Below, in pieces: positions 5,018 to 19,166 of a stretch of 64,000 nucleotides of DNA. The stretch comes from Gemmatimonadota bacterium (GTDB lineage Bacteria; Gemmatimonadota; Gemmatimonadetes; Longimicrobiales; Gaopeijiaceae): NCBI GenBank assembly GCA_028873815.1, contig JAPPNN010000050.1, positions 1 to 64,000 of the forward strand, read 5' to 3'. The translations under genes and the position numbers were made by a program. The notes under the pieces were generated by a model that worked only from the letters and a program-made list of their open reading frames with translations, ran no database searches and was not told where the DNA came from. How positions within the stretch are numbered: position 1 is the first letter of the stretch; every line of letters starts with the position of its first letter.

Positions 5018-5070
5018 GACAGAAAGCGCAGATCGTACGGCCCTGTAAGTAGTTAGACGATTCCCTGCCG
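5018..5070 (+). repeat. Dispersed ~52 bp repeat, copy 1 (putative attachment site)
   Basis: Shares CGCAGATCG, CCCTGTAAGTAGTTAGACGA and a closing CCCTGCCG with the copy at 18075-18127. Same orientation as the other two copies. It abuts the breakpoint of the truncated integrase copy (about 22 bp away). Its 14 bp core (5027-5040) is the most diverged of the set. Confidence 0.7.
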
Positions 5071-5093
5071 TGATTCACGTCCGATACAGTCCG

Positions 5094-5351
5094 CTTCTCC
5101 AGAGTGAGCGGCTCGGCCTCGGCTTCCGCCTTGCCGGTGAGGTCCGGGCCGGCGAATCCGGCCGCGAACTCGTCCGCCTGCCTCTTCGCCCTCGCCCAGT
5201 CGCGGTGACCCAGCGGCCGGGTGAGCCTCCGCCCGTTCTCGCGCCACTCAATCTGGAAGTTGCCGGTCTTCGGGTCCGGGAAGATCCGGACCCGGTTCCG
5301 GCCCCATTCGCCAGCGCCGTACGAGCGCCGACTTCGTTTCGTGCGTGCCAT
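5094..5351 (-). pseudogene. Truncated tyrosine recombinase (N-terminal 86 codons only)
   Basis: The first 86 codons (MARTKRSRRSYGAGEW through PLTLEK) are nearly identical to the start of the intact integrase at 7415-8575. Homology stops abruptly at about 5092, after which the frame runs into unrelated sequence next to repeat copy 1. The arm/N-terminal domain is present; the catalytic R, H-x-x-R and Y are all missing, so it cannot recombine DNA. DNA homology to the intact copy also extends about 42 bp upstream of the start. Confidence 0.85.
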
Positions 5352-5715
5352 CGTTCGATTCCTCTCGATTCGATGGACTGCACGATCTGCGCATCCGAAT
5401 CTCGCTGGACGAAGGCCGCTTGACCAGTGCGAATGTGGCACTCGCGTGGTTGGCTTCTCGAACCGAACCCGAAACACCTTGGGCTCTACGGGAAGCGATG
5501 GGGGAGCGGTCGCCGGAGGCCGTTGGGTATCCAGGACCGCACCGGACGGCTCGGGACGATTGCCTGCGGTGCGGCTTGACGCCGCCGAAGGCGCTCTCCC
5601 GATTCCTACTGGCGGTGACACCTTCACCAGCACCGAATACCTACTACGGAATCCGTGCTACTGCGGGAGAGGAAATCCTCATGTGCCGCGAAGCCACTGA
5701 CCAACGACCGTCGCG
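5352..5715. other. Gene-free stretch upstream of the truncated integrase
   Basis: The first ~42 bp match the region upstream of the intact integrase and include CTGCACGATCTGCG at 5378-5391, the reverse complement of the dispersed repeat core. Beyond about 5395 I see no gene, hairpin or promoter I can support. Confidence 0.5.
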
Positions 5716-6654: not shown

Positions 6655-6832
6655 TCGCCCGTGGACGTGGCCCGTTGCCGATCCATGAGTGTCCATGTGA
6701 AATCGGGGTCGTTGTGCACGAAAACCGCGCTCAGGTGTGACACGCCGCCGATACCGCAAGTTGCTGGCGGCGTTATGTTTGTACCGCAGCCGCCGGGGCG
6801 GCCGATGACGGGCGGGCGCGTGCGCCCGTTGA

Positions 6833-6924
6833 CGGGAGCGACCCATGTGTTCGGCATACCTCACACGCCACGGCGGCGGTTGGGATGTGCACGGCCATCC
6901 CACCCTCGCCTGGGGTCGCTCCCG
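6833..6924. repeat. Structured palindromic module A
   Basis: A 12 bp perfect outer stem (CGGGAGCGACCC with GGGTCGCTCCCG) encloses two inner inverted repeats, one of which is TGGGATG...CATCCCA around GTGCAC. A small hairpin, GGGCGCGTGCGCCC, precedes the module. Same layout as module C. Confidence 0.8.
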
Positions 6925-7086
6925 GACCAGCGATCCCATGCGGGAAGGCTAAACGGCGCGCCGCGACGGGTCCCGTCCCGACCGTGGTCGGTGATGCCGC
7001 ACAGCCCACCGGCCAGCCGGTCGGCGAACGGGTGCTCCGCCGCCTCGAAGCGGCGCGGGAACGGCCTTCCTGCAAGGATGATTCGA

Positions 7087-7183
7087 TGGGGAGCGACCCC
7101 AGAAGGGGGCGGGGACGAGCGTGTGAAAACGCGCACGGCCCCGCGCCCGAACCGGGCACCTGTGCCCCTGGGGTCGCTCCCCA
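7087..7183. repeat. Structured palindromic module B (inverted relative to A)
   Basis: A 15 bp perfect outer stem (TGGGGAGCGACCCCA with TGGGGTCGCTCCCCA). Inside are a GC-rich stem around GTGTGAAAACGCGCAC and a small hairpin GGGCACCTGTGCCC. Read on the minus strand, the small hairpin comes first and the larger one second, the same order as in A and C. Confidence 0.8.
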
Positions 7184-7356
7184 CCAAGCCCCAAGCGGCT
7201 CCCGCGCCCCGGCCGGCCGCGCGGCGAAGCCGCAAGACATTGCCGTGCCATCGGATATGCAGGCCGGGCGGTGCGCATCACCGGAGTGCCAAAATGTGCA
7301 TCGACCCCCGTTGTCTCTTGCACAAGAGGTGTCTTGTGTGGATGTCGTTGCGGGAA

Positions 7357-7398
7357 TTGAACTTACGAGTCCAGATACATGGATTCCCGCTGTTCGAT
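7357..7398. repeat. Inverted repeat just beyond the integrase 3' end
   Basis: GCGGGAAT and ATTCCCGC form an 8 bp perfect inverted repeat around an interior that contains ATTGAACTTACG, a 12-mer also present in the repeat copy at 27093-27144. It may be part of the integrase attachment region or a terminator-like hairpin. Confidence 0.45.
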
Positions 7399-7414
7399 TC
7401 CCGCCGATTGAAAA

Positions 7415-8575
7415 TCAGCCGTGAGTCGTCGCACGCCTGTCGAGAGCCTTCCGCAGTTGGTGCTGATCGACTCGCTGATAGCACTGAAGGATCGTCTGGG
7501 CGGTCTTCCAGCCGCCAAGCTCGCAGAGGACCTTGAGCGGAAGGTCCATGAGGTCGGAAGCAAACTTCCGCCGAAGCGAGTGCCAGCCCCGGCCATGCTT
7601 CGGTTCCAGCCCGGCCCGGTCAGCCGCCTTCCTCCACCAGTCGCGCACGCACCATTCGCTGACGCACCTTGCCGGATCCCTCGGCGCTGGCAACAGGGGA
7701 GCGTCTCCGCTCCCGGGATTCGAGTTCGGCGCCTCCTTGAGGACAGCCAGCGCGGCGCTGGTCAACGGGGTCCGGTGCTCGTATCCGGTCTTCTCGTGCT
7801 CGGCTCGCCAACGGACGATCCCGTTCTCGAAATCGATGTCGTTCCATCGAAGATGGCGGATGGCCCCGATGCGGTGACCCGTCTCGTGCGCCAGCACGAG
7901 GGCGACGTTGAACCGCCAGTCCACCTGTCGGGACACCTTCAGCAGTGCCCGGTACTCCGCCTCGGCGAGAACCACCCGTGTCGGGTTCTTCTGCTTGGGC
8001 TTCTTCAATCCTCTCAGGGGGTTCGACGCGAGGAGGAGCCTTCCCTCCTCGTCCCTCGACTTCCCGGCCCAGTTGAGGACCGCGATCAGGAACGTCAGGT
8101 CCTGTTCGATCGTTCGGTCGGATACCGGCTTCCCGCTCCGGCCGGCGCGGCCTGCTCGCCGCTCCCGGATGAACCGGTCCCAGTCCCGCTGCGACAGGGT
8201 CTCGGGTCTTCGGTCCCTCCCGAAGAACTGGAGAAACATCGCGGTGGTGGCCCGGTCGTACCTCCGGGATCCCTTGCCCTTCGTGGGCGTCACCTCCTCA
8301 CCGTAGATTTCAAAGAGCTTCTCCAAGGTGAGCGGCTCGGGCTCGGCTTCCGCCTTGCCGTTCAGGTCCGGGCTCGCGAACCCCGCGGCGAACTCGTCCG
8401 CCTGCTTCTTCGCCCGGGTCCAATCCCGGTGCCCGAGCGAACGGGTGAGCCTTCGCCCGTTCTCGCGCCACTCGACTTGGAACAGGCCGGTCTTCGGGTC
8501 GGGAAACACCCGGACCCTGTTCCGGCCCCACTCGCCAGCGCCGTAGGAGCGCTGGCTTCGTTTCGTGCGTGCCAT
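7415..8575 (-). CDS. Tyrosine recombinase / site-specific integrase, intact
   Basis: 386 aa, ATG start with ribosome site AGAGAGGA about 9 bases upstream. The N-terminal arm/AP2-like region (residues 1-90, basic, with a FPDPKTG...WRENGRR strand pair) is followed by a core-binding domain (about 100-190) and a catalytic domain. Catalytic residues are visible: R235 in GHRIGAIRHLRW, H332 and R335 in WHSLRRKF, W356 in LGGWKT and the nucleophile Y366 in CYQR. It probably integrates and excises the surrounding genomic island. The region upstream carries CTGCACGATCTGCG (8599-8612), the reverse complement of the core of the dispersed repeats. A truncated duplicate lies at 5094-5351. Confidence 0.92.
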   Translation of the reverse strand: MARTKRSQRSYGAGEWGRNRVRVFPDPKTGLFQVEWRENGRRLTRSLGHRDWTRAKKQADEFAAGFASPDLNGKAEAEPEPLTLEKLFEIYGEEVTPTKGKGSRRYDRATTAMFLQFFGRDRRPETLSQRDWDRFIRERRAGRAGRSGKPVSDRTIEQDLTFLIAVLNWAGKSRDEEGRLLLASNPLRGLKKPKQKNPTRVVLAEAEYRALLKVSRQVDWRFNVALVLAHETGHRIGAIRHLRWNDIDFENGIVRWRAEHEKTGYEHRTPLTSAALAVLKEAPNSNPGSGDAPLLPAPRDPARCVSEWCVRDWWRKAADRAGLEPKHGRGWHSLRRKFASDLMDLPLKVLCELGGWKTAQTILQCYQRVDQHQLRKALDRRATTHG

Positions 8576-8598
8576 CGTTCGATTCCTCTCTCGATGGA

Positions 8599-8612
8599 CT
8601 GCACGATCTGCG
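8599..8612 (-). promoter_or_regulatory. 14 bp core shared with dispersed repeats (putative att core)
   Basis: CTGCACGATCTGCG lies just upstream of the integrase start. It also occurs upstream of the truncated copy (5378-5391). In the opposite orientation it occurs in the repeat at 18084-18097 (exact), at 27102-27115 (one mismatch) and at 5027-5040 (three mismatches). An attachment or recombinase-binding role is inference. Confidence 0.45.
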
Positions 8613-8933
8613 CAGCGAAGTATCGCGGAAAGCAGGCTTCTCCGCCAGAAGAAGAAGTGCTCGAAGCGCGCGGCATCCTCCGCGAAATCGGGCCGGAAAT
8701 CCGCCGTCTACCGGTCGCGCCGGAGCTTCCCGATCTTCGGGCGGGCAGCGATGACTTGGAGGCGGTTCTCGGTACGCCCGGTGCCGATCCAGAGGTGCAC
8801 AGTGACGCGAGGGTCGTTGTGCACGAAAAAGCGTCTTGGACGTGCACGGCGCCGATTCCGTAAGATGTCATCGTTCTTGTCTTTGCGATCCGTATACCAG
8901 AGCACCGATGCCGTGTCGGCCTTCAGGCCGATG

Positions 8934-9026
8934 CCGGTAGCGACCCATGTGTTTCGATGCCTGTCGTGGCATCGGCGGAGGTTGGGATGTGCACTCCATC
9001 CCAACTCCCCCATGGGTCGCTACCGG
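8934..9026. repeat. Structured palindromic module C
   Basis: A 16 bp perfect outer stem (CCGGTAGCGACCCATG with CATGGGTCGCTACCGG) encloses two perfect hairpins: GATGCC-tgtcgt-GGCATC and GTTGGGATG...CATCCCAAC around GTGCAC. The result is a cloverleaf-like three-way junction. A further hairpin, TCGGCCTTCAGGCCGA (8916-8931), sits just outside. Confidence 0.85.
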
Positions 9027-9218
9027 GCCAGCAATCCCGTGCGGGAAGACCATCGGCGAGCCGAATCGGGACCCGGTCCCCTCGCCTATCCGTCGGGCCG
9101 CCGTAACGCGCCATCGGTGCCGCCGCGTCCGTTGCCAGACTCGGTGGCGCGCCGCCTCCTCATCGCAACCGGAGTCGGCTTGCACGGGTGTCGGACCATG
9201 CATTAGGATTCTCCTGCC

Positions 9219-9884
9219 ATGGGACGGAACAAGCCAAAGCGCAGAGAGCGGGGGCCGTCGTGGAAGCGTTCGCTCGCAAGGACCGCGTGCCTCGTCTTCG
9301 GCCTCCTGACGATCCGCGTCGTGGCACTTCAGGCCTTCACCATCACGTCCGGATCCATGGAGCCGACGTTGTCGGCGAGGGACTTCCTGCTCGTCAACAA
9401 GGCCGCGCTCGGCTCGCGGATTCCGTTCACCGACATCCGCATCCCCGGCTACTCGGAGCCCGAGAGAGGGGAGATCCTGGTCTTCGATCCCCCGCACGAG
9501 GACACGCTCACCGTCATCAAGCGGCTCGTCGGAATGCCCGGGGACACCTTGCAGATGCGGGACAAGACCTTGTACCCCTGAACGGGCGGGTGTTGGACGA
9601 ACCATACGTGCTGCACACCGAAGGGGCATCCGATTTCTCCGCAGTCTCGATGCTGTGGCAGCAGGAGATCCTCGTCGGTGGTCCGAGGGAGAACTACCGG
9701 TCGACGCGCGACACATGGGGTCCCCTCGTGATCCCCGACGACCGCTACTTCATGCTAGGCGACAATCGGGACGCGAGTCTGGATTCGCGGACTTGGGGGC
9801 TTCTGGAGCGCTGGCGCTTCGAGCCGGCCGTTCCCGTTCATCCGCGAAATACGCTGGAACCGGATCGGAACCCGTCCCCGATGA
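9219..9884 (+). pseudogene. lepB: Signal peptidase I (S26 family), two frameshifts
   Basis: The reading frame starts MGRNKPKRRERG, has one transmembrane helix (about residues 20-42), the catalytic Ser motif SGSMEPTL and the Lys motif VIKRLVGMPGD, but stops at 9579-9581. The protein continues in another frame (LNGRVLDEPYVLH, then YFMLGDNRDASLDSRTWG, box E) and, after a second shift near 9830, in the third frame (FPFIREIRWNRIG) to a stop at 9882-9884. The first shift lies in a C run (TACCCCTG) and the second in a short C/G-rich stretch. Intact, the protein would cleave Sec signal peptides. It is either a decayed cargo gene or a sequencing-error victim. Confidence 0.85.
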
Positions 9885-10021
9885 CCGTCTCCGGGGTGGC
9901 CCTCCGCCCGGCTGCGGTCTCGAACACCGCCGGAACAGGCAGCCCCGATCCGGTCGGAGAATGGGTGCTCCGCCGCCTCGAAGCGGCGCTCGTACCGCCT
10001 TCCCGCGCAGGGATCGCTGGT

Positions 10022-10114
10022 TCGGTAGCGACCCCAAGGGTCGGGGGCAGGGGTGCGCAAACCCACCTGCCCCCGAACCCGTAGCAGGCCCTCGGACTGC
10101 GGGGTCGCTACCGA
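10022..10114. repeat. Structured palindromic module D (inverted relative to C)
   Basis: A 14 bp perfect outer stem (TCGGTAGCGACCCC with GGGGTCGCTACCGA) encloses a hairpin GGGGGCAGG...CCTGCCCCC. The module is 93 nt long, close to the other three, and is inverted relative to module C. Confidence 0.8.
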
Positions 10115-10255
10115 CCACGCCCCGAGCGCCACTGTGCCACGGGCGACCGGACGGCGCAGACGCAAGACGTTGCCACGCCACAGGATGAGCCGGAGGTCGT
10201 GTGCGCATCGCCGGAGCCCCTAAGTGTGCATCGGACCCCCATGTCGTTTGCGCGA

Positions 10256-10603
10256 TCAGGTACGGCTCTAAGCCGGGGCGCGGGCTACCGCCCGACCCGA
10301 TCCCGGAGAGCAGCACCTCTTGTGCGTCGAGGCCGCCGTGATCCGTTGTCGTTCGTAGGATGTCCGGCTGGTCTCCCAAGACGAAACGGGCGCTTGCGGC
10401 GGCCCGGATGACGACGGCGAGGTCGGAGTCTACCATGACCGGCCATCCAATGGTCAGCAGGTTCCACAGTCGGCACTACGGCGGTCGTGGCGATCAAGTT
10501 TCGACGGCGCGACCGGCGGCTTGTAATGTGCCGTTGCGGAGGTCGAGGGGGGCACAGCCCCCGCCAGCCCATGCGCCGACGGTTGTTGCGTGTGCGGGTG
10601 CGC
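10256..10603. other. Gene-free stretch between element copy 2 and the large defence-type gene
   Basis: No complete gene. A minus-strand frame from about 10436 to 10270 reads MVDSDLAVVIRAAASARF onward for about 55 codons in a protein-like way before entering the element, so it could be the 5' remnant of a gene interrupted by it. I cannot identify it. Confidence 0.3.
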
Positions 10604-13600
10604 TCAGTCGAGATCCTCAAGCATCCCGGACCTGTGATCCTCCTGTCCGGCATCGAGCTCGTAGTGATCTGCTATCCTTCGCAAGAGCCTTGCCGTGCGT
10701 GGGTGGCTAAAGCGCACCGCCGCCGCCAAACCCTCATACTGTTCCGCCAACTCGCGCTCTTGCTCACCTCCCTCGGTGGGATGTTTCGAGATCAGGCCGC
10801 GGCCGGTTAGGACGCCGTGCCTCAGCCCCTCCTCCACCTCGGGACGATGTACTATGTCATCGAGGATGTCACGGACCGGTGTACAGGGCCAAGTCCCGTC
10901 GGGGTCCGGTGGACTCTCGCTGAGCATCTCCCCAATTGCGTGGCGACCGATGGCCAACCGGTCAACGTCATCAAGCGCCCTTTCCGCCGAAGAAATCCAT
11001 TCGCGGAGATACTCCCTGTCAGGCTGCTCGGATCTGGCCGGGGCAGGTACGGCTCGCCACGATTTCAACAAAGAGTGGCCGGCACGGGCGCGCAGTTCAT
11101 CTTGTTGAGCCAGTCCTGGCGGCTCGTCGCCTCCCGCCCGGTAGACGAGAGACACCACCTCCGCGAAGAACTCCGGGCTCTCTGACAAGAGGTGATGCAG
11201 GGCACGCGGAGTCCAGTCCAACCGTCTGAGAAATCGTAGGAGCCTCCATTCAACACCTGCTACCCGAATCCTATCGAATCCGGCGACCACAAGCGTGTCG
11301 AGGAGTCGCTCCGCCGCGTGAGCGAAACTAGGGCTGGGTCCGTCCACTTCCGTGTCATCCGTGTCGGTCGCCACCACCGCTTCAAGAACCTCTGCGATCA
11401 CTTCCAATGGCATGGAAGCCTCGCCGCTACGTTGTAACCCCAGAAGGTCAATCGCTGCGAACGGACGTCCAGCTCTGACCAGTTCCAGAGCCGCTTCGGC
11501 GAGATGCTCAACTGCGATCTTGTGGACCACTACTTGGCGCCAGTAAGCGAGCGACGTAGCCTCACCGTAGTCGGCGGCCAGTCGCCAAGTCGCCCGCGTC
11601 GCCGGTAGCGCGCACAGCATTGCCGCTCGCTGGAGCGCGGATAACCCCAGATTCTCCCGTTGAAGCTGGCCGAGTACCCAGTCATCGCCATGTGCATCCA
11701 CGTGGCCCGCCGCGTAGCCGAACGCCAGCATCGCCAACGCTCGATTCTCATCGCCAAGGTGACTTGCGAGCAACTCGTTGCCAAGACGATGCACGTTGTC
11801 TACGCTCGCCGCTGTTCTGCCAACTTCCCAAGGTTGCTCAACCTCGCTCGCGAGAGCCCGCAGCCCGCCGAGTCCTCGTTCTTCCACGACCTCGCTCACC
11901 GCCCTGATTCTCTCCGTGCCAAGAGCAACTTGCTGTGCGTCCCACGACGTTTCCGTCACGTCGGGACCATCGGAGAGGTAGGGCTCAGGGCCGAACAACC
12001 AAGCAGAGCGGGCGACCGGATCGTCGGGAGCAAATCGATCACGGATGGCATCTAGCCGGGCAAGACAAGCCTCCGGCATGGCCCATTTTGCGGTCCGCAA
12101 GGCTCTGTGCCGGGCGACGAGTGCTCTAAGTGCCTCCCAAACTAGGCTGGGTCCGTCGAGTTCTTGAGCGTCCAGCTTCTCCAGATCTTCAACGATGCTG
12201 GTGTGTTCATCGTGTGGAAGCAGGTCCAGATGTTCGACCAGTTCTGCCCACCGCTTCGCGTCGGATCCGGCATCGGAGCACAGCCGGTGGACGACCTCCT
12301 TGGTGGTGTCTGTGATCACCTTCAGGCTTACAGAACGCTCCGCGTTGTCGGCCCAGTCTCTGACCTTGGGCTGGGCGCTTGGAAAACCGACGGCGTGCAT
12401 CTCCGGGAGCATCGACAACATGACCGCCCACCCAAGTTCAGGCCGCACATGGCGCAGCTGATTAAGCAACTGGAGCCGCTGCTCCAGCGTGGCGGACGTC
12501 TGGGGCTGCCAGCTTCGGAAGATGGCGTTGAGGCTGGCCGAGGGACGATTCGCCAGTCGGCCACCATCCTCGGCCCTGGTTAGCAGTGGTGAACCAGGAT
12601 CCACGCGGTCGAGGTGCGCCAGCAACGACACGACCCGGCCGACATGATCTCGCGACCACGCCAGGACTTCCAACGCGTGAAGGAGACCAGGGTGCGGAGA
12701 CGCATGGAACATCGCACTTCCGTGGTCAGTGAAGAGCCGGGCAAGCACTGGCCTCGGACCGATCACCCCTTCTTCCACGCTGTCCAGAAACGGATCGGGC
12801 GCGGCCTCGGCGAGTTGCGGAAGACGGCTGGACAGTGAGGCCCATATCCTCCAGTCTTGGTTGGCGGCCATAAGCACCTTCCGGACGACTCGCGCCGATA
12901 CGTCCCGTTCCGAATAGTCTGCGAAGGGCAGCTTGTCCTCCTGTACGCCCATGATCAGGAGAGATTGAGCCAACCCGTCTAGTAGGAGATTCGACCACTT
13001 GGGCGATACATCGAGGGCCGCCGCCATCCAACGCTCGTCGCGGGGGAGATCGAAGGCTGGGTCTGGGGTTCGCATGACATCGAGGGCGATCTCCTCGAAT
13101 CGGGTGAAGTCGTCGGGCGTCAGGTAGCGGCGCAATGCCCGCCATGCGCCCTCATGCGATACCAGATACCAAGCGTGATTTCGTCGCCGGATTGCAGGAT
13201 CTGCTCCTACGCTCCAACGCACCATTCGATCTCCAACGTCTTCGTACGCGCATCGACTCAGTCGTGCGAGCACCTCGCGATCCCCTGCTCTTGCGTCGTC
13301 CCACGACCCGGCGAAGACTGCGGGCAACAGCGTTCGGCCCACGGCTGGTTTCGACCACTCTGGCTGCTGCAAACCGGAGCCGTGGGAAATCTTGCGCCGA
13401 AATGCAGTCAAGCTTCGGCGCGCCAATCCAGCCAACTTGTAGGCGTATTCTTGATCTATCCCGTGCTCCCCGAGCACCTCGGCGACGGAATCTCGCGACA
13501 AGGGAGCCAATCGCACACTCACTCCGTGTTCCGCATCAGCTTCATCTAGCGGGACGACTATGGTGTGGCCCGCACGGGCTGCGGCTGTCACGAGTTCGTC

Positions 13601-14710
13601 CGCATCAATGGCTGGTGCCGGAACCAGTAGAAGACGCGACGGAAATGCCGTCAACTGTCGGAGTGCGTCGCGTGATTCGACGACGACCGAACGCGCGAGA
13701 ACGTGGTCGGCGTCAGCCGGAGGAAGCTCGCGTATGACGCAGTAAAGCACTGCCACAGCCTCGCTCCTGGACTCCGTTCGAATGGCAAACGACTGACCAG
13801 ATTCGCCAAGCCGATCACGGATTTCGGACACCGCGACATCGCGATCCGAAAGCAGAAGTCGAGACGTAATGGGCGGATGCGTCTCCTCCGCCCACTCACG
13901 CCAGTACGATTCCAGGTCGATCGAGCCGCTGGGCGTCTTGTCGATTCGCCTTGAAAACCACACATGGACTGCGGGTGCCTGCTCCATCCACGCGACCAAG
14001 CCGTCCGCATCGACGACTCGTACGCGCCGAAACGGTCCCAGTTCGGTCTGCTGTCTGGCCCACGCTTGCTCCCCGCTGAAACGGCGCGGGGTGACGAACA
14101 CAAAGGTGGTGTCTCCGGGGTCGAGTGGCTCAGGTTTCTCAGCCCGGTCCTGCAAGTCCCTTTCGGCCTTGCGCTTTGCGCCCGCTCCAGTTCCCATCTC
14201 CCACCCGCTTGCACCGGGTGGCACGAAGGGCGTGCTCTGCGAAATGTCCTCGCCCGCGTCCACGATTCCGTCCCAGCCGCTTAGTTGCACGCCTTCCTCG
14301 TCCCGGAACCCCTGTAGCTCGCGCAGACCCCTGCTAGTCGCGAAGATCAGACGCCGAACCAGCACCGGGAGCAGCCCTTGAGCTTCTCGGCGACCGGCCC
14401 ATGCCACTAGATCGGCTGCGTTGCAAAGAGTACTGCTTCTGATGGGCGAGTGGCGGGTCTTCGCCGCTGCGCGCCCACCGGCCAGCCCCGTATTCGGAGG
14501 GGTATCCACACCGGACCCACGCGCCAGTGCTGTCGCGATCAGCTCTTCAGTTCGGGGCGACACCCGGTTCTGGTTGATGGCCCGCGAGACTGTCTGGCGG
14601 CTGATCCCGCTGGCGTCAGCCAAGCGAGCTTGACTCCACCCGGCCGCCTTGATTTGCTTGCGCAGGCTGGCCCCGTAACCCGGAACCTCGCGGACGGTTC
14701 GATCAGTCAC
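10604..14710 (-). CDS. Large XRE-HTH protein with putative PD-(D/E)XK-like domain, degenerate STAND-like region and helical C-terminus; candidate anti-phage effector
   Basis: 1368 aa, GTG start with ribosome site AAGGAGC. Residues about 10-65 form an XRE helix-turn-helix (WSQARLADASGISRQTVSRA). Residues about 90-260 contain LSGWDGIVDAG, then FVPPGASGWEMGT and a following K-rich segment, a spacing that recalls PD-(D/E)XK nucleases fused to sensor proteins. Residues about 280-450 are alpha/beta without a clear Walker A, so any ATPase fold is degenerate. The remaining ~900 residues are Leu/Ala/Arg-rich helices resembling an alpha-solenoid sensor. The layout, and the restriction-modification genes downstream of its start, suggest defence. 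Upstream (14739-14746) is the palindrome TACTAGTA, a possible self-regulatory site. The domain calls are inference. Confidence 0.75.
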   Translation of the reverse strand: MTDRTVREVPGYGASLRKQIKAAGWSQARLADASGISRQTVSRAINQNRVSPRTEELIATALARGSGVDTPPNTGLAGGRAAAKTRHSPIRSSTLCNAADLVAWAGRREAQGLLPVLVRRLIFATSRGLRELQGFRDEEGVQLSGWDGIVDAGEDISQSTPFVPPGASGWEMGTGAGAKRKAERDLQDRAEKPEPLDPGDTTFVFVTPRRFSGEQAWARQQTELGPFRRVRVVDADGLVAWMEQAPAVHVWFSRRIDKTPSGSIDLESYWREWAEETHPPITSRLLLSDRDVAVSEIRDRLGESGQSFAIRTESRSEAVAVLYCVIRELPPADADHVLARSVVVESRDALRQLTAFPSRLLLVPAPAIDADELVTAAARAGHTIVVPLDEADAEHGVSVRLAPLSRDSVAEVLGEHGIDQEYAYKLAGLARRSLTAFRRKISHGSGLQQPEWSKPAVGRTLLPAVFAGSWDDARAGDREVLARLSRCAYEDVGDRMVRWSVGADPAIRRRNHAWYLVSHEGAWRALRRYLTPDDFTRFEEIALDVMRTPDPAFDLPRDERWMAAALDVSPKWSNLLLDGLAQSLLIMGVQEDKLPFADYSERDVSARVVRKVLMAANQDWRIWASLSSRLPQLAEAAPDPFLDSVEEGVIGPRPVLARLFTDHGSAMFHASPHPGLLHALEVLAWSRDHVGRVVSLLAHLDRVDPGSPLLTRAEDGGRLANRPSASLNAIFRSWQPQTSATLEQRLQLLNQLRHVRPELGWAVMLSMLPEMHAVGFPSAQPKVRDWADNAERSVSLKVITDTTKEVVHRLCSDAGSDAKRWAELVEHLDLLPHDEHTSIVEDLEKLDAQELDGPSLVWEALRALVARHRALRTAKWAMPEACLARLDAIRDRFAPDDPVARSAWLFGPEPYLSDGPDVTETSWDAQQVALGTERIRAVSEVVEERGLGGLRALASEVEQPWEVGRTAASVDNVHRLGNELLASHLGDENRALAMLAFGYAAGHVDAHGDDWVLGQLQRENLGLSALQRAAMLCALPATRATWRLAADYGEATSLAYWRQVVVHKIAVEHLAEAALELVRAGRPFAAIDLLGLQRSGEASMPLEVIAEVLEAVVATDTDDTEVDGPSPSFAHAAERLLDTLVVAGFDRIRVAGVEWRLLRFLRRLDWTPRALHHLLSESPEFFAEVVSLVYRAGGDEPPGLAQQDELRARAGHSLLKSWRAVPAPARSEQPDREYLREWISSAERALDDVDRLAIGRHAIGEMLSESPPDPDGTWPCTPVRDILDDIVHRPEVEEGLRHGVLTGRGLISKHPTEGGEQERELAEQYEGLAAAVRFSHPRTARLLRRIADHYELDAGQEDHRSGMLEDLD

Positions 14711-15312
14711 AATTGCTCCTTGCTCTTTAAGGCATATGTACTAGTAACGTAACATCTGACATGACCCGTAGTACACCCGAAGCGTAGTCTGGTTTCCTCG
14801 GAGGCCGTGTCGGTCACCAGAACGGATTAGCCAAGTCCATGCCACCGCTGCGTGGAACCGCTATCCCACTGCCCGGAAACCGCACATCCGATGATCTGTT
14901 CGCGGTTCCACCTTCGCTCGTCGGATCGCCCACGACGTGTGAACGGGAATGACACGACATCGAAGCGGTGCCGCACCGTGCCGTGCGCAACGCGGTGCTG
15001 GAGCAAGATAGCCCCGGATCAGGTTACGGGGTGAGGATTCGAGCCCGGAGGCCCGCCCGCAGCCTCGCCGACTCGATGTAGGCTCGGCTGCCGGGTTGCT
15101 GCACCCTGTTCCGCGCCGGATCGTCCGGGTAAGCCCAATTCGTGTTCGGCGTTGAAGGGATCCCGGAACGGGCCTAACGTCTTCTCCCAACGACGCCACA
15201 GGCGCTACACCCAGCCTTGGGGTGACTCCGCCTGATTTCTTCGCTGACCCGGCGCTGTTAGCTTAGCTTGGAACCTTGGAGCAGCGCCCCGTTCCGGAGG
15301 TAGGTCCACTTC
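14711..15312. other. Divergent intergenic region before the restriction-modification genes
   Basis: About 600 bp between the divergent XRE-solenoid gene and the methyltransferase gene. It must contain both promoters. AT-rich sequence with TACTAGTA and the direct repeat GTAAC lies at 14735-14755. The methyltransferase start is preceded by the ribosome site GGAGGTAGG (15296-15304). No coding sequence in this interval looks real. Confidence 0.5.
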
Positions 15313-16773
15313 ATGAGCACATCGCCGAGCCGCAAGGATCTTGGATCCTACTACACCCCGCCGGTCGTCGTCCGTGCACTGGTCTCATGGGCGATGCGAG
15401 GAGATGTCAGCGGTCCCGTTCTCGACCCCGCGTGCGGGGACGGTCGGTTTCTGGCGGGTCTGGAGAATGCCGTCGGAGTGGATGTAGACCCGGTGGCCGC
15501 CGCCGAAGCTTCGCAGTGTGTGGACGCGGAGATCGCGACAGCGGATTTCTTCGAGTGGGCACCCCAAACGAGTCGCCGATTCGCGGCAGCCGTTGGCAAC
15601 CCACCCTTCATCCGTTACCAGCGGTTCACCGGTCAGGCGCGTCAGCGGGCGCTAGAGTACTGCGCCGCCCAAGGGGTTGAGCTTTCCGGCCTGTGTTCGT
15701 CGTGGGCACCTTTCGTGGTAGGAGCCTCGCGCCTCCTGATGCGCGGAGGACGCCTTGCTTTCGTCGTCCCTGCGGAGATCGGACACGCGGTTTATGCGCG
15801 GGCGGTGGTTCGGTATCTCCTCCGCTCGTTCGAACGTGTTGAAGTGATCGCCGTCCGGGAAAAACTCTTCCCTGATCTATCGGAGGACTGCTGGCTATTG
15901 CGGGCATCTGGATTCGGCGGTCGGTCGGATGCAATTCACTTCGTTCGACTCGACTCGCTTCCTGTGGAGAACGGTTCTTGGGACGGCGAGCCGGTGTCGG
16001 TGGAGGAACTCGGACGGTGGGGATTCCGGTTACGTGCTCTCCTGCTCCCCTCGTCGATCCGTGCAGCCTACCGGGAGATTGCGGTTGCCAAGGCGGCCAG
16101 CCGACTGGGCAACTTGGCGCGGCTCGGAATCGGCTATGTGACGGGAGCCAACGGCTTCTTCCATCTGCGCCCCAGTACCGCAGCCGCGTTCGGCATCCCG
16201 AAGGAAGTGCTCCGCGTTTCCGTCCGCTCGAACCGTGACCTAGCTGTGGACGATGTTGACGAGGCTGTCGTGAGGCGATGGTTAGACGAAGACCGCGCGG
16301 TTCTCCTGTTGAATCTGGGTGGCGTAGGCGAGCTGCCTCGTTCCGTGGGAGATTATCTGGATTCTGAGGCAGGGCACACGGCGAGCAAGACCTACAAGTG
16401 CCGGAACCGTCAGCCGTGGTATGCGGTACCGGATGTCCAGACCCCTCACGCGTTCCTGTCCATCATGTCCGGTCGGGGGCCAAGGTTGGTCGGAAACTCT
16501 GCCGGCGTGACCTGCACCAACTCCGTCCACGCAGTGCACTTCCGTAACGAGCGGGACGTGACACGATACCTTGCCAACTGGCGGAACGCGCTGACCACGC
16601 TTTCCTGCGAGTTGGAGGGACACGCGTTGGGAGGTGGCGTCCTGAAGATCGAACCGGCAGAGGCCCGCCGTGTTCTGCTGGCGCCTGAACTAGATCTGTC
16701 GGAGGAGCAAGAGGAACTGCTTCGCAGCGGAACCCGTGAGCTTAGGAGGTGGAGGCATTACCGTGCCGCCTGA
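15313..16773 (+). CDS. N6-adenine DNA methyltransferase (Eco57I/TaqI-like, gamma-type motif order)
   Basis: 486 aa, ATG start. The N-terminus reads GSYYTPPVVVRALVSWA, the usual opening of Eco57I/TaqI-like methyltransferases. Motif I (SAM binding) is LDPACGDGRFL, followed by the acidic motif II segment VGVDVDPVAA and the catalytic motif IV NPPF (residues about 95-98) in NPPFIRYQRF. The C-terminal half is the target-recognition region. It methylates adenine in a specific sequence to protect host DNA. The last codons overlap the endonuclease gene by 11 bp, so it is a co-expressed modification-restriction pair. Confidence 0.9.
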   Translation: MSTSPSRKDLGSYYTPPVVVRALVSWAMRGDVSGPVLDPACGDGRFLAGLENAVGVDVDPVAAAEASQCVDAEIATADFFEWAPQTSRRFAAAVGNPPFIRYQRFTGQARQRALEYCAAQGVELSGLCSSWAPFVVGASRLLMRGGRLAFVVPAEIGHAVYARAVVRYLLRSFERVEVIAVREKLFPDLSEDCWLLRASGFGGRSDAIHFVRLDSLPVENGSWDGEPVSVEELGRWGFRLRALLLPSSIRAAYREIAVAKAASRLGNLARLGIGYVTGANGFFHLRPSTAAAFGIPKEVLRVSVRSNRDLAVDDVDEAVVRRWLDEDRAVLLLNLGGVGELPRSVGDYLDSEAGHTASKTYKCRNRQPWYAVPDVQTPHAFLSIMSGRGPRLVGNSAGVTCTNSVHAVHFRNERDVTRYLANWRNALTTLSCELEGHALGGGVLKIEPAEARRVLLAPELDLSEEQEELLRSGTRELRRWRHYRAA

Positions 16774-17653
16774 GACGCCGGTCCTCATCAGCCTGAAGGA
16801 GGCCCTCACACAGTTTGCCTTCCCGCCTGCCAATGTCCAAACCAGCAAGCACATCATCCCACTACACTGGTACGTCGCTTGTCGGTTGGTGATCGAGGGC
16901 GGTTTCGATCCCGATCAGATCTTCCCGCGACCGCCGATCACCGTAAAGGAGAGGCGACGTGCCCTTCTACTTCACCATGACCCGTCCGCTGCGAAGCCCG
17001 GCGAACGGACGGTTTTCGGTGGCTTGAAAACCAAGCAGTTGGATGTGACGGTCACGGTCCCAACGATCGGCCCGGTCCTCGCGGTGTCTCTGAAGGGCAC
17101 GCACAACGCGTTCCGCAACCTGACGAACCGAATGGAGGAGGCTGCGGGAGACTGTACGAATATCCACATGGCCTACCCGGCCCTGGTCTACGCCTTCTGG
17201 TCCGTTCTTCGAGCCAACGAGGCCGACGACCCAGCTCCGGTTGCTCACTTCAAACTCAAGGAGGATCACTACGCCGGACCCGATCTCGCGTTCCAAGAGG
17301 GCGGTGAGCCTACGGAGACAATCAAGCGCTACCAGCAGGCGCTTCTACGTCTCTCGGAACGCGACGATCTCCGCGACCACCCGTCGCGCTACGAGGCCTG
17401 CGGGCTGACCTTCGTGAAGGCTAGGGGCGGTCCGGCCGAATGCGGTGTGTACGCTGGAAACGCCGACTCCAAGCTCGACTACAATCGGATGTTCCATAGG
17501 CTGTACGCCATCTTCGACAGGCGGTTCGTGTACACCGCCGCCAAGCTGAGGTCGAAGACCAAGAGGAAGGTTTGGGACCGCGAGTCCCCGCTCCTAAAGG
17601 AGACGATCTTGCGACAGGACGCGTTTGCGGAGATGGAGCCCCGGATTGGGTAA
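16763..17653 (+). CDS. Putative type II restriction endonuclease (PD-(D/E)XK-like)
   Basis: 296 aa from the GTG at 16763. The ribosome site AGGAGGTGG (16744-16752) lies at the right distance for this start and overlaps the methyltransferase 3' end; an upstream GTG at 16736 is in frame but would precede the ribosome site. The central segment KTKQLDVTVTVP, followed by VLAVSLKGT, matches the D...(S/E)xK pattern of PD-(D/E)XK nucleases with D about 15 residues before the SLK lysine. Translational coupling to a DNA methyltransferase supports the call. Sequence specificity is unknown and no characterised family is recognised. Confidence 0.75.
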   Translation: MPPETPVLISLKEALTQFAFPPANVQTSKHIIPLHWYVACRLVIEGGFDPDQIFPRPPITVKERRRALLLHHDPSAAKPGERTVFGGLKTKQLDVTVTVPTIGPVLAVSLKGTHNAFRNLTNRMEEAAGDCTNIHMAYPALVYAFWSVLRANEADDPAPVAHFKLKEDHYAGPDLAFQEGGEPTETIKRYQQALLRLSERDDLRDHPSRYEACGLTFVKARGGPAECGVYAGNADSKLDYNRMFHRLYAIFDRRFVYTAAKLRSKTKRKVWDRESPLLKETILRQDAFAEMEPRIG

Positions 17654-18074
17654 GCGGATCTGGTCCTTGTCAGCGCGGCCGGTGACAACGCACGAAACCT
17701 GGGCGGCCCACTAACATCTGGAGTACCCACCCGATCAGCATGTTCGACCCATGGGACTGGGGGACAGTTCGTAGCACGGCGATTCTCCGCGATCCGTGCT
17801 ACCGGGCTCGGTAGGTCGTGGGGATGATCTCCAGCGCAGTGCCAGCGTCTCCGCTGTGTTGCGGTCTGGCGAGGGAGCCGCAACCTGCGAGGACTGCGGG
17901 CTACAGCGTTACCAGCGGCGGGGGAGGTAATCCCGTGAGGCCAGCCCGTTGAGCCGACTGCTGGAGGGCTTCCGAAGCCATCAGGGAGAGGGGTGGTGTG
18001 CCTGCGGGAAGGTCCCGCCATTCGAACCCGGTTTTCCCGCTTTCGCGCCCCGGTCCAGCAAGATCCAGTTCAAC
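17654..18074. other. Gene-free stretch after the restriction gene
   Basis: No supportable gene. The right part (about 17995-18074, containing GGTCCCGCCATTCGA) resembles the sequence left of repeat copy 1, suggesting that the dispersed repeat unit is longer than its 52 bp conserved end. Confidence 0.4.
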
Positions 18075-18127
18075 GGCAGGAAACGCAGATCGTGCAGCCC
18101 TGTAAGTAGTTAGACGATTTCCTGCCG
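18075..18127 (+). repeat. Dispersed ~52 bp repeat, copy 2 (putative attachment site)
   Basis: Perfect 9 bp inverted ends, GGCAGGAAA (18075-18083) and TTTCCTGCC (18118-18126), enclose the core CGCAGATCGTGCAG and CCCTGTAAGTAGTTAGACGA. It is in direct orientation to copies 1 and 3 and carries an exact match to the 14 bp found upstream of both integrase genes. Confidence 0.75.
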
Positions 18128-18182
18128 GGATTCGGCCCTGTGGCGATGCGCCTCTTGCACACCTCCGGTACGGCCCAGCACA

Positions 18183-19166
18183 TCAGGACTCCCACCAGAT
18201 TCGAGCCCCCGCCAGCCGGTCCGAACTCCATGTCTTGACGCGTTCCGTCAGCCCCCGGCCCGCACGCCTGCGCGCCCGGTTCTCAAGGGCGATGGCGTGC
18301 TTCAGGGCGGCGTTCAGGCCACCGTATTCGTCGAGCGTGCGGACATCTCCCCCGAGGATGGCCTGCTCGATGCGGGCGAGATCGCGCCGGGTCTCCTCGT
18401 CGATTTCGGACGGGCGCGGATACCGCGACCAGTTGGCCAGCACCCGGCTCGTCCTCCCGTACTCCTTCCATCTCCGGACGACCGCCACCACCTCGATCTT
18501 GAGGCCGAGGTCCCAGAGCCCCTTCCAGAGATCGCCGTGCTTCGCGCCCCACGAGCGGATCGCCGTCGCGGTCTCGTAACCCGGTTCGGCGTAGACGAAG
18601 ACGGCGCGCTCCGTGTCCAGCGCGATGGGCAGCCCGAGCGGGAAGAAGCGCCGGAGACCCCCGAGCGCGCCCCGGTAGACCCGTTGGGGAAGAAGCCCCC
18701 GCTCGATCCCGAGCGCCTCGAAGGCGGCCACCCGGTCGGCTTCGGTGGGAAGCCACGGCAGGCGGGGATGTTCGAGCACGTAGTCGAGCCCGAGCAGGCG
18801 CCGCATCGTCACCTCCGGCGACGTGATCCTCCGGCGGCGGCGGTCCCCCAAGCCGAGCGCCTTGTAGATCGGGCGACCGTGGATACGGCAGATCCGCCCG
18901 ATGCCCTTGATGCCGGGCGGCTTCTCCTCGATGGCCACGCCCTGGGCGACGAGCTTGCGGACGGCGCGGCCCACCTTTTCGTGGTGGGACCCGAGGAAGC
19001 TCGTCCACTGTACGCGGGTGAACACGCCGCCGTGGCAGCAGGCCAAGGCGATCCATTCGGCACGGCGTCCCTTCCAGCCGAAGGGCTTCAACCCTTCTGC
19101 GCGCTCCCTGAGACCGGGGACCGCTCTGCCCGCCGCAGGACCGATCCATTGCTTCGGTGTCTCCAT
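18183..19166 (-). CDS. Winged-helix-like protein, paralogue of the gene at 5716-6654
   Basis: 327 aa, ATG start. It aligns over its length with the plus-strand gene at 5716: shared blocks include GRRAEWIALA, CRIxxRxxYKALG and LPWLPTEAxxVAAFEALGI. The N-terminal third has a winged-helix pattern; the remainder is an unrecognised alpha/beta region followed by charged helices. It lies about 55 bp inside repeat copy 2, while its paralogue lies near repeat copy 1. That placement suggests a gene family travelling with these elements, perhaps in replication or mobilisation, but no catalytic motif is visible. Confidence 0.75.
   Translation of the reverse strand: METPKQWIGPAAGRAVPGLRERAEGLKPFGWKGRRAEWIALACCHGGVFTRVQWTSFLGSHHEKVGRAVRKLVAQGVAIEEKPPGIKGIGRICRIHGRPIYKALGLGDRRRRRITSPEVTMRRLLGLDYVLEHPRLPWLPTEADRVAAFEALGIERGLLPQRVYRGALGGLRRFFPLGLPIALDTERAVFVYAEPGYETATAIRSWGAKHGDLWKGLWDLGLKIEVVAVVRRWKEYGRTSRVLANWSRYPRPSEIDEETRRDLARIEQAILGGDVRTLDEYGGLNAALKHAIALENRARRRAGRGLTERVKTWSSDRLAGARIWWES

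Follow-up and report, generated by a model that had tools for sequence, protein, structure and literature searches.

TraX of plasmid pAD1 is a non-canonical relaxase that, according to part of the published account, binds direct repeats located about 70–120 nt from the nic site (PMC12857230), and the Pfam family PF13814 (Replic_Relax) is given as the MobC profile in an excerpt of another study (PMC5357655). In the T-shaped hairpin that forms the inverted terminal repeat (ITR) of a parvovirus, adeno-associated virus (AAV), a protein reads a linear repeat element as well as one of the arm tips, and the cut is made in a separate nicking stem, as described in a section of PMC2809752. Integrative and mobilizable elements (IMEs) and mobilizable genomic islands (MGIs) without a relaxase use the transfer functions of a conjugative element, as stated in part of a further paper (PMC5704250). 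Here, we analysed a 64,000-nt stretch of a Gemmatimonadota genome (contig JAPPNN010000050.1 of assembly GCA_028873815.1; hereafter the window), which carries four cloverleaf-like palindromic modules, A to D, and genes for a protein that we call ORF2. The modules are real, they are widespread in one part of the phylum, and they are tied to this one protein. As to what they do, we see about an even chance that a cis-acting DNA initiation site has the module as its core; this would most likely be an ORF2-bound origin of transfer (oriT), or a rolling-circle or replication origin that also serves for transfer, in integrative and conjugative elements (ICEs) and IMEs that form a new family.

The four modules lie where a preliminary description of the window, made from the letters alone, had placed them, and the spaced core that they were said to share, AGCGACCC N56-86 GGGTCGCT, occurs four times in the window and not once in 100 dinucleotide shuffles; the 4.29-Mb assembly has 15 sites with this pattern and one with the reversed pattern. 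The closing stems are indeed perfect in A (12 bp), B (16 bp) and C (16 bp), D folds with 14 closing pairs, and B and D are oriented opposite to A and C. Whether folded as DNA or as RNA, both strands of each module give a closing stem that carries two inner arms, with z-scores from −4.1 to −10.1 and none of 200 shuffles as good in any fold (8 + 8 folds). The two inner arms had been described as being in a fixed order in all copies, and such a fold is seen in each module, except that the first arm of A is weak and pairs unlike that of C. A aligns with C and is of what we term the L type, and B aligns with D and is of the R type. The two sets are homologous, because the covariance model of each type also detects the other: R1, built from 26 R-type modules, finds many L-type modules, and R2, built from 27 L-type modules, many of the R type. 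A two-armed junction on a stem of at least eight pairs is formed by 72 of 74 distinct R-type and 43 of 49 distinct L-type modules, compared with 10% of shuffles, and the remaining six L-type modules fold with three branches.

The module is by no means restricted to these four copies, as a covariance-model search of the phylum gave R-type matches in 31 of 298 genomes, nine of which have at least ten scored matches (at most 14 candidates were scored per genome). A linked gene shared by these genomes was also found: ORF2, which encodes a predicted winged-helix protein of about 312 amino acids (aa). It has matches in 34 of the 298 genomes, and 30 genomes hold both ORF2 and module, three of them (G103, G158 and G285; we number genomes G### and loci L###, and the window and locus L017 both come from G000) with fragments of ORF2 only. 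The module occurs without ORF2 in one genome (G059) and ORF2 without the module in four (G065, G161, G215 and G298); within the family to which the window belongs, both are present in each of the 24 positive genomes. Of 30 loci picked by ORF2 alone, 26 carry a module downstream of the gene, on the strand of ORF2 and at a constant distance from it; the four misses are L237, which stops 211 nt after ORF2, presumably at a contig end, L262 and L264, in which ORF2 is partial, and L265, in which it is divergent. Seen from the module, ORF2 or its remains lie upstream on the same strand in many loci. On viral contigs, 80 of 97 stretches with the bare pattern were scored, and as they reached no more than 25.6 bits with R1 and 27.7 bits with R2, we treat these 80 as chance occurrences. 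In open-licence papers, we found no literature on mobile elements of sponges or Gemmatimonadota, and no oriT with a three-way junction.

For ORF2 itself, searches of Pfam, NCBIfam and PHROG returned no family with a meaningful E-value, and a tblastn search of plasmids and phages with the copy next to module A, ORF2a, was likewise empty at E ≤ 0.01. The structure model of ORF2, with a predicted local distance difference test score (pLDDT) of 84, consists of a winged helix and an alpha/beta domain, and the best 50 Foldseek matches are mostly winged-helix regulators (best E 0.012); the model of the C-terminal fragment was poor (pLDDT 71). ORF2 and module diverge together, and since the N- and C-terminal parts of the protein score alike in partial Mantel tests (0.40 and 0.39), this co-divergence does not tell descent from coevolution.

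The stretch that had been described as the module is conserved, and the true unit is larger, about 275 nt, comprising also an outer spacer and an inner hairpin. Its order is ORF2, which is often lost, a spacer of about 169 nt with three repeats (161–181 nt, median 169, in 49 pairs of ORF2 and module), the three-way-junction module, and a small cargo-side hairpin of about 25 nt, CCAGCRATCC..GGAAGGC, where conservation mostly ends. Cargo-side homology was compared in module pairs with 150 nt or more of outer homology, an identity of 70% and 200 nt of inside sequence, and it ended 0–59 nt past the module in 434 of 581 comparisons; the duplicates L217, L219, L225 and L229 were left out of this count and of that of the module intervals below. 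In an alignment of L017 with L144, the C-terminal half of ORF2, the spacer and the module interior appear as one diverged block in otherwise collinear DNA.

The repeats of the spacer, which we call iterons, lie in its distal block (−150 to −81) at about −140 (inverted), −118 and −95, and the tip of hairpin 2 (module positions 47–68) tends to repeat the iteron word of its own unit, a word that the spacer carries in both orientations. Between the tip and the distal block of the unit to which it belongs, 2.00 7-mers are shared per unit, compared with 0.77 for blocks of other units (p = 0.0001), 0.52 for units with dissimilar tips and 0.18 for shuffled blocks; the block beside the module, taken as a control, shares 0.10 with the tip (p = 0.97). 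At least one 7-mer is shared in 26 of 39 units, where permutation gives a mean of 13.5 and a maximum of 25, and with the near block in 3 of 39; on 30 distinct tips, the coupling has p = 0.0002. The words define classes, namely TGTGCAC (window A and C), TGCGCAC (window D and others), TTCAC/ATTCAC, CCGGACA (L017, L258 and L259) and GATGTACA (L260), and tip and repeats change together between classes more than expected. Part of the coupling is explained by shared descent, since the distance between tips also tracks the near block, and it is the word test and not the matrix test that carries the claim, because distance matrices link the tip to both blocks.

The stems had been said to differ between copies in matched pairs, as expected under selection on structure, and compensated substitutions are indeed seen in homologues far beyond the four copies. 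With identical rows removed, as also in the G–U and co-divergence analyses, the covariation score exceeds that of shuffles, which leave the relatedness among rows in place, in both sets: it is 0.255 for 74 distinct R-type modules (shuffles give 0.142, and none of 500 is as high; sliding the partners gives no more than 0.066), with two-sided changes at 10 of 22 pairs, and 0.114 for 49 distinct L-type modules (0.050 in shuffles, 0 of 500 as high). The counts of further pair types did not exceed shuffles in the R type (75 of 500 reach the count) or the L type (260 of 500), nor did the five two-sided pairs of the L type (143 of 500 reach five). The signal comes from the outer closing stem, where GC, CG, TA and AT occur at the same pair, and the inner eight pairs are nearly invariant. 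The invariance of the AGCGACCC core in the first alignments (A3/A4) is partly due to selection of the sequences, because these were gathered with that pattern, and the later ones (A6/A7) were gathered by models built from A3/A4. Hairpin 1 of the L type is paired in just 73.8% of cells and that of the R type is drawn with constant wobble pairs, and our covariation claim therefore concerns the closing stem, which is also all that RNAalifold recovered from the first L alignment, because hairpin subtypes misalign there. These data support selection on structure, and the constraint most likely acts on DNA rather than RNA, as judged from the sequences, because both strands fold alike and G–U pairs are rare. 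They make up 79 of 2614 (3.0%) predicted pairs on the sense strand of the R type and 49 of 1757 (2.8%) of the L type, 71 of 2656 (2.7%) and 53 of 1763 (3.0%) on the other strand, and 10.8% (R) and 11.7% (L) in shuffles, so that modules have about a quarter of the shuffle level; this step from rare G–U pairs to DNA is one that we infer, and perfect long stems alone lower the G–U count.

The setting in which the unit is found points to conjugative elements. In the ICE at L017, the order is VirB4-like (a match to the TraG P-loop family), VirB9, VirB10, two frames without a family, VirB8, ORF2, module, type IV coupling protein (T4CP), VirB11, ArdC ... int, tRNA-Val, and L017, L019, L021, L142, L144, L149 and L151 are collinear over several kb, each with ORF2 and module. 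Pfam identification of type IV secretion system (T4SS) genes in this group covers L017 and L149 with its contig, where VirB6, VirB11 and ArdC were identified. Both have T4SS genes, as expected of self-transmissible ICEs, and because these and ArdC were found in them, we consider the collinear loci to be ICEs or their remains. An integrase with a defined insertion junction is also present (one case, with a 10-nt direct repeat), and the small int-L-R elements look like mobilizable relatives of the ICEs. No canonical relaxase was found in the part of the ICE frames that was scanned, and the sole PF03432 match in the genome of L149 lies on a short contig, not on that of the ICE. Two features of an oriT are present next to transfer genes, namely an inverted repeat and repeats that are putative binding sites. 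An oriT is suggested because the site of L017 lies between virB8/ORF2 and the T4CP gene, no canonical relaxase was seen in the scanned frames, and the small hairpin is conserved.

We propose that ORF2 would bind the three iterons of the spacer and that, on supercoiled or single-stranded DNA, the module would extrude, so that its tip would show a fourth copy of the binding word and ORF2 could bridge iterons and cruciform. Such a lock would fire only on supercoiled or single-stranded DNA of the right class, a nick might then be set near the conserved RATCC..GGAAGG inner hairpin, either by ORF2 or by a recruited nuclease, and the strand would be handed to the coupling protein, whose gene is adjacent. 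Small elements that lack a T4SS and carry the same site could be mobilised in trans by an ICE, and convergent R and L copies may each start transfer toward the cargo. More tentatively, and with a probability that we put well below even, this would be a bacterial origin in which one protein reads iterons as well as an iteron copy on the extruded tip of a three-way junction, as a co-evolving specificity lock; it would be an independent counterpart of the parvoviral T-shaped origin, with ORF2 being neither an HUH, MOB_C, Rep_trans nor tyrosine-recombinase relaxase.

Several observations weigh against an ORF2-bound origin of transfer. It would be unusual for an oriT to be present as two inverted copies in one element. 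ORF2 has no fold match in the PDB or among viral proteins at E ≤ 0.001, no nuclease motif was seen in it, and its classification as a MOB_C relaxase was dropped, as the PF13814 profile has no match over cut-off at any ORF2 in four genomes, nor does it appear among the matches of 18 ORF2 proteins. In sliding windows, it is residues 241–285 that track the iterons best (partial r 0.58–0.59) and not the winged helix, residues 31–60 giving −0.01. A relaxase could hide in the ICE, because no family was assigned to two frames (362 and 344 aa) and the scan covered part of the ICE frames; a relative of the PF03432 relaxases also occurs in some module loci (L111, L106 and L024), so ORF2 need not be the relaxase, and this relative may be the true nickase there. 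The iteron–tip coupling has its exceptions, too: 13 of 39 units share no 7-mer, 6-mers are shared in 35 of 39 yet the permuted maximum is 36, tip and iterons disagree in the L147 class and in L151, module B has tip matches of 6 nt at most, and tip distance correlates with the near block (r 0.70) as well as with the iteron block (0.69), with partial values of 0.32 and 0.26.

The module may be an oriT, another origin or a site of cassette exchange, and about half of our confidence goes to an ORF2-bound origin. If R and L modules were recombination sites that swap cargo in the manner of integrons, with ORF2 or the integrase acting on the folded site, one would understand why homology stops just past the module on the cargo side, why most module intervals are convergent and many of them short, why the A–B interval is empty in the window and filled in a relative, why L019 has a one-gene restriction enzyme directly after the ORF2-R unit of a locus collinear with the T4SS loci, and why several modules, for example those of L022, L018 and L080, have stem arms of mixed class. 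However, the one insertion mapped for the integrase family lies, outside any module, in a separate palindromic core located 3′ of int, a single module was detected between ORF2 and int in L017, L142, L144 and L149, ordinary homologous recombination in conserved flanks yields the same breakpoints, and an apparent break inside module B in L077, which we had considered as a natural breakpoint, is really a scaffold gap of Ns; we therefore regard cassette exchange as unlikely. We hold it decidedly unlikely that the module is an operator of ORF2 as a regulator, or a two-way transcription stop that shields the cargo, with the hairpins as a by-product or a device against transcription. The modelled winged helix is MarR/ArsR-like and the repeats lie 3′ of ORF2 and, in L017, 5′ of the T4CP gene, but a two-armed junction in nearly all modules and a repeat word in its tip exceed what an operator needs, and the conserved unit ends in GGAAGGC and not in a run of T.

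A site for partition, or for lagging-strand synthesis, would be needed after transfer and not at its start. Single-strand origins (sso) are folded single-strand DNA read by the host RNA polymerase, and repeats and structured DNA beside a winged-helix gene would suit a centromere- or sso-like site. Among the ICE frames scanned there is no partition ATPase, however, and an sso needs no repeats that change with it, which makes this explanation quite improbable. A non-coding RNA, or an element in the 3′ untranslated region of the ORF2 transcript that is perhaps bound by ORF2, would account for the strong fold and for the constant strand and distance of the module behind ORF2 at the 26 loci. We nevertheless consider it highly improbable, given that the use of G–U pairs is low and without strand asymmetry, the antisense strand is slightly more stable than the sense strand, the tip word is found in the spacer in both orientations, and no known RNA family of Rfam matches between positions 5500 and 11000 of the window at E ≤ 1.

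The features of the window are given in Table 1. Positions 7325–18151 are one inserted element flanked by CTCTTGCACA, of which the relative L098 has a single copy and no insert, and this comparison shows that A and B belong to an older element, and C and D to one that landed beside B.

Table 1. Features of the window and their coordinates.
Feature	Position	Strand	Remarks
N-terminal fragment of a second integrase of the same family (element 1)	5094..5351	−	
ORF2a, 312 aa	5716..6654	+	predicted N-terminal winged helix and C-terminal alpha/beta domain; no family
Spacer of unit A, ORF2a to module (176 nt)	6655..6830	+	iteron TGTGCACG at ~6713; same word in hairpin-2 tip of A
Module A, L-type cloverleaf (three-way junction), 3′ of ORF2a	6831..6926	+	core pattern, fold, covariance models
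Inner hairpin of A, CCAGCGATCCC..GGGAAGGC	6927..6952	+	conservation mostly stops here
Inner hairpin of B	7060..7085	−	
Module B, R-type cloverleaf, partner of A	7086..7184	−	cut off from its own ORF2b by later 10.8-kb insertion
Outer spacer of unit B up to insertion point	7185..7324	−	weak 6-nt tip words alone
Left copy of 10-nt junction repeat CTCTTGCACA	7315..7324	+	
Tyrosine integrase (PF00589), 386 aa	7415..8575	−	18 full-length copies in assembly
Outer spacer of unit C, without ORF2	8757..8932	+	TGTGCAC at ~8795 (inverted) and ~8818, as GTGCAC at ~8842
Module C, L-type cloverleaf	8933..9027	+	adjoins intact integrase
Inner hairpin of C	9028..9052	+	
Cargo C–D: N-terminal part of signal peptidase gene (PF10502)	9219..9581	+	frame interrupted after 120 aa
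Inner hairpin of D	9996..10020	−	
Module D, R-type cloverleaf, partner of C	10021..10115	−	
Outer spacer of unit D	10116..10291	−	tip words GTTTGCGC (~10246–10253) and TGCGCAC (~10201–10207)
Right copy of CTCTTGCACA	18152..18161	+	
ORF2b, ~48% identical to ORF2a	18183..19127	−	natural neighbour of module B before insertion

Elements usually have the order R(+), cargo, L(−), int(+), from which L020, L093 and others differ. Among 37 intervals of at most 9 kb between neighbouring modules, 26 are convergent, eight tandem and three divergent; the convergent ones span 155–7252 nt, with 10 of 26 being 451 nt or shorter, and the A–B interval, empty in the window, holds 2.0 kb in the relative L147. The cargo between modules includes an OLD/AriA-like ATPase, a one-gene MmeI-like restriction-modification enzyme and a HEC-07-like protein (L016, L019 and L224), and elsewhere an outer-membrane barrel, a periplasmic binding protein and a PNPOx protein; four of ten cargo proteins have no Pfam family. 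In L213–L216, two tandem R modules lie 1.5–3.3 kb apart, and these gene-sized intervals amount to short arrays. Outer and inner stem arms of different classes were seen in L022 (9187), L018 (276), L080 (7663), L216 (293), L224 (8027), L155 (126) and L213 (5610), and such modules have the appearance of two modules fused by recombination within the site. On the L side, 34 of 80 loci have a contig end no more than 1.5 kb from where the integrase starts, compared with 9 of 80 for its end; it is on the cargo side that assemblies break, owing either to repeats or to population variation. The inserted element of the window (10604–17653) further encodes a 1368-aa protein with an N-terminal helix-turn-helix only and a type II methyltransferase-like gene, and a gene with an IrrE/M78 peptidase domain followed by a DUF4411 gene is found at 811–2480, an arrangement known from toxin–antitoxin pairs.

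The integrase adjoins L-type modules and has 29 matches in the assembly, 18 of them full-length. Its relatives, of which we took the best 80 of 387 confirmed stretches in genome contigs (L077–L156), come from metagenome-assembled genomes mostly labelled Gemmatimonadetes/Gemmatimonadota, with 16 of the 80 labelled Gammaproteobacteria and a few labelled Acidobacteria, Terriglobia or Binatia; many of these genomes presumably originate from sponges. For this family one junction was mapped, and it lies in a palindromic core that is separate from the modules and situated 3′ of int. At about 90 integrase loci, the integrase stop is followed (7330–7415 in the window) by a conserved GCGGGARTC direct repeat, a CCGTAAGTTCAA-like motif and a locus-specific palindrome, for example CTCTTGCACAAGAG or TGCCATTTTGGCA, which is probably the attachment core. 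Among 60 loci scanned, elements end beside tRNA genes in L017 (Val), L115 (Arg), L154 (Pro), L159 (Ile) and L165 (Pro). The near-identical CTGTAAGTAGTTAGACGAT at 5040–5075 and 18100–18140 of the window, the first just before position 5093, where the element-1 integrase is cut, may mark the far ends of two distinct inserted elements. A PF03432 relaxase or a relative was seen near int in L165 (G000:C49), L105, L111, L115, L130, L135, L136 and L141, and in all of these but L111, seven of the eight, R1 and R2 detected no module at E ≤ 0.001; the matches to relaxase relatives are those of queries L172, L175, L176 and L180 only, since queries derived from minus-strand matches were antisense frames.

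The modules provide a marker for a family of mobile islands that has no name in the databases used, and they link these islands to ORF2, a protein family without annotation. The agreement of iteron and hairpin tip gives a testable recognition code by which an ICE and the small islands that it may carry could recognise each other, and the cargo of the islands includes restriction-modification and OLD/AriA-like genes. With integron attC sites, the modules have in common folded DNA, a linked tyrosine integrase and often a single-gene cargo, but unlike attC sites, R and L modules converge. We agree with the preliminary description that they are not attC sites, as the one mapped junction of the linked integrase is outside the modules and the integrase is not of the IntI type (19.8 bits with TIGR02249, cut-off 265), and that they are neither IS200/IS605 ends nor repetitive extragenic palindromic (REP) elements, as no Y1-transposase family matches ORF2 and the linked recombinase belongs to PF00589, the genes of the elements having been scanned in part. 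As in relaxase-less IMEs and MGIs, so far as the excerpted account describes them, small elements share a site with an ICE of the same genome (the window and L017, G000), whereas two convergent copies of the site, often with ORF2, differ from what is described there. The position of the putative binding repeats far from the processed region, and of the gene beside T4SS genes, resembles TraX/pAD1 and a MOB_C oriT, as far as the cited passages go; unlike in MOB_C, ORF2 has no PF13814 match, and the hairpin takes the form of a three-way junction, in many cases with the iteron repeated at its tip. To the AAV ITR there would at most be a likeness of working, in that a linear word is accompanied by the same word at a hairpin tip (26 of 39 units), but the module is internal and part of a bacterial ICE or IME, and ORF2 matches no helicase or nuclease family. 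The comparison with TraX/pAD1 and the parvoviral origin would be one of similar work and not of common membership, with iterons at a distance on the one side and a word repeated at a hairpin tip on the other.

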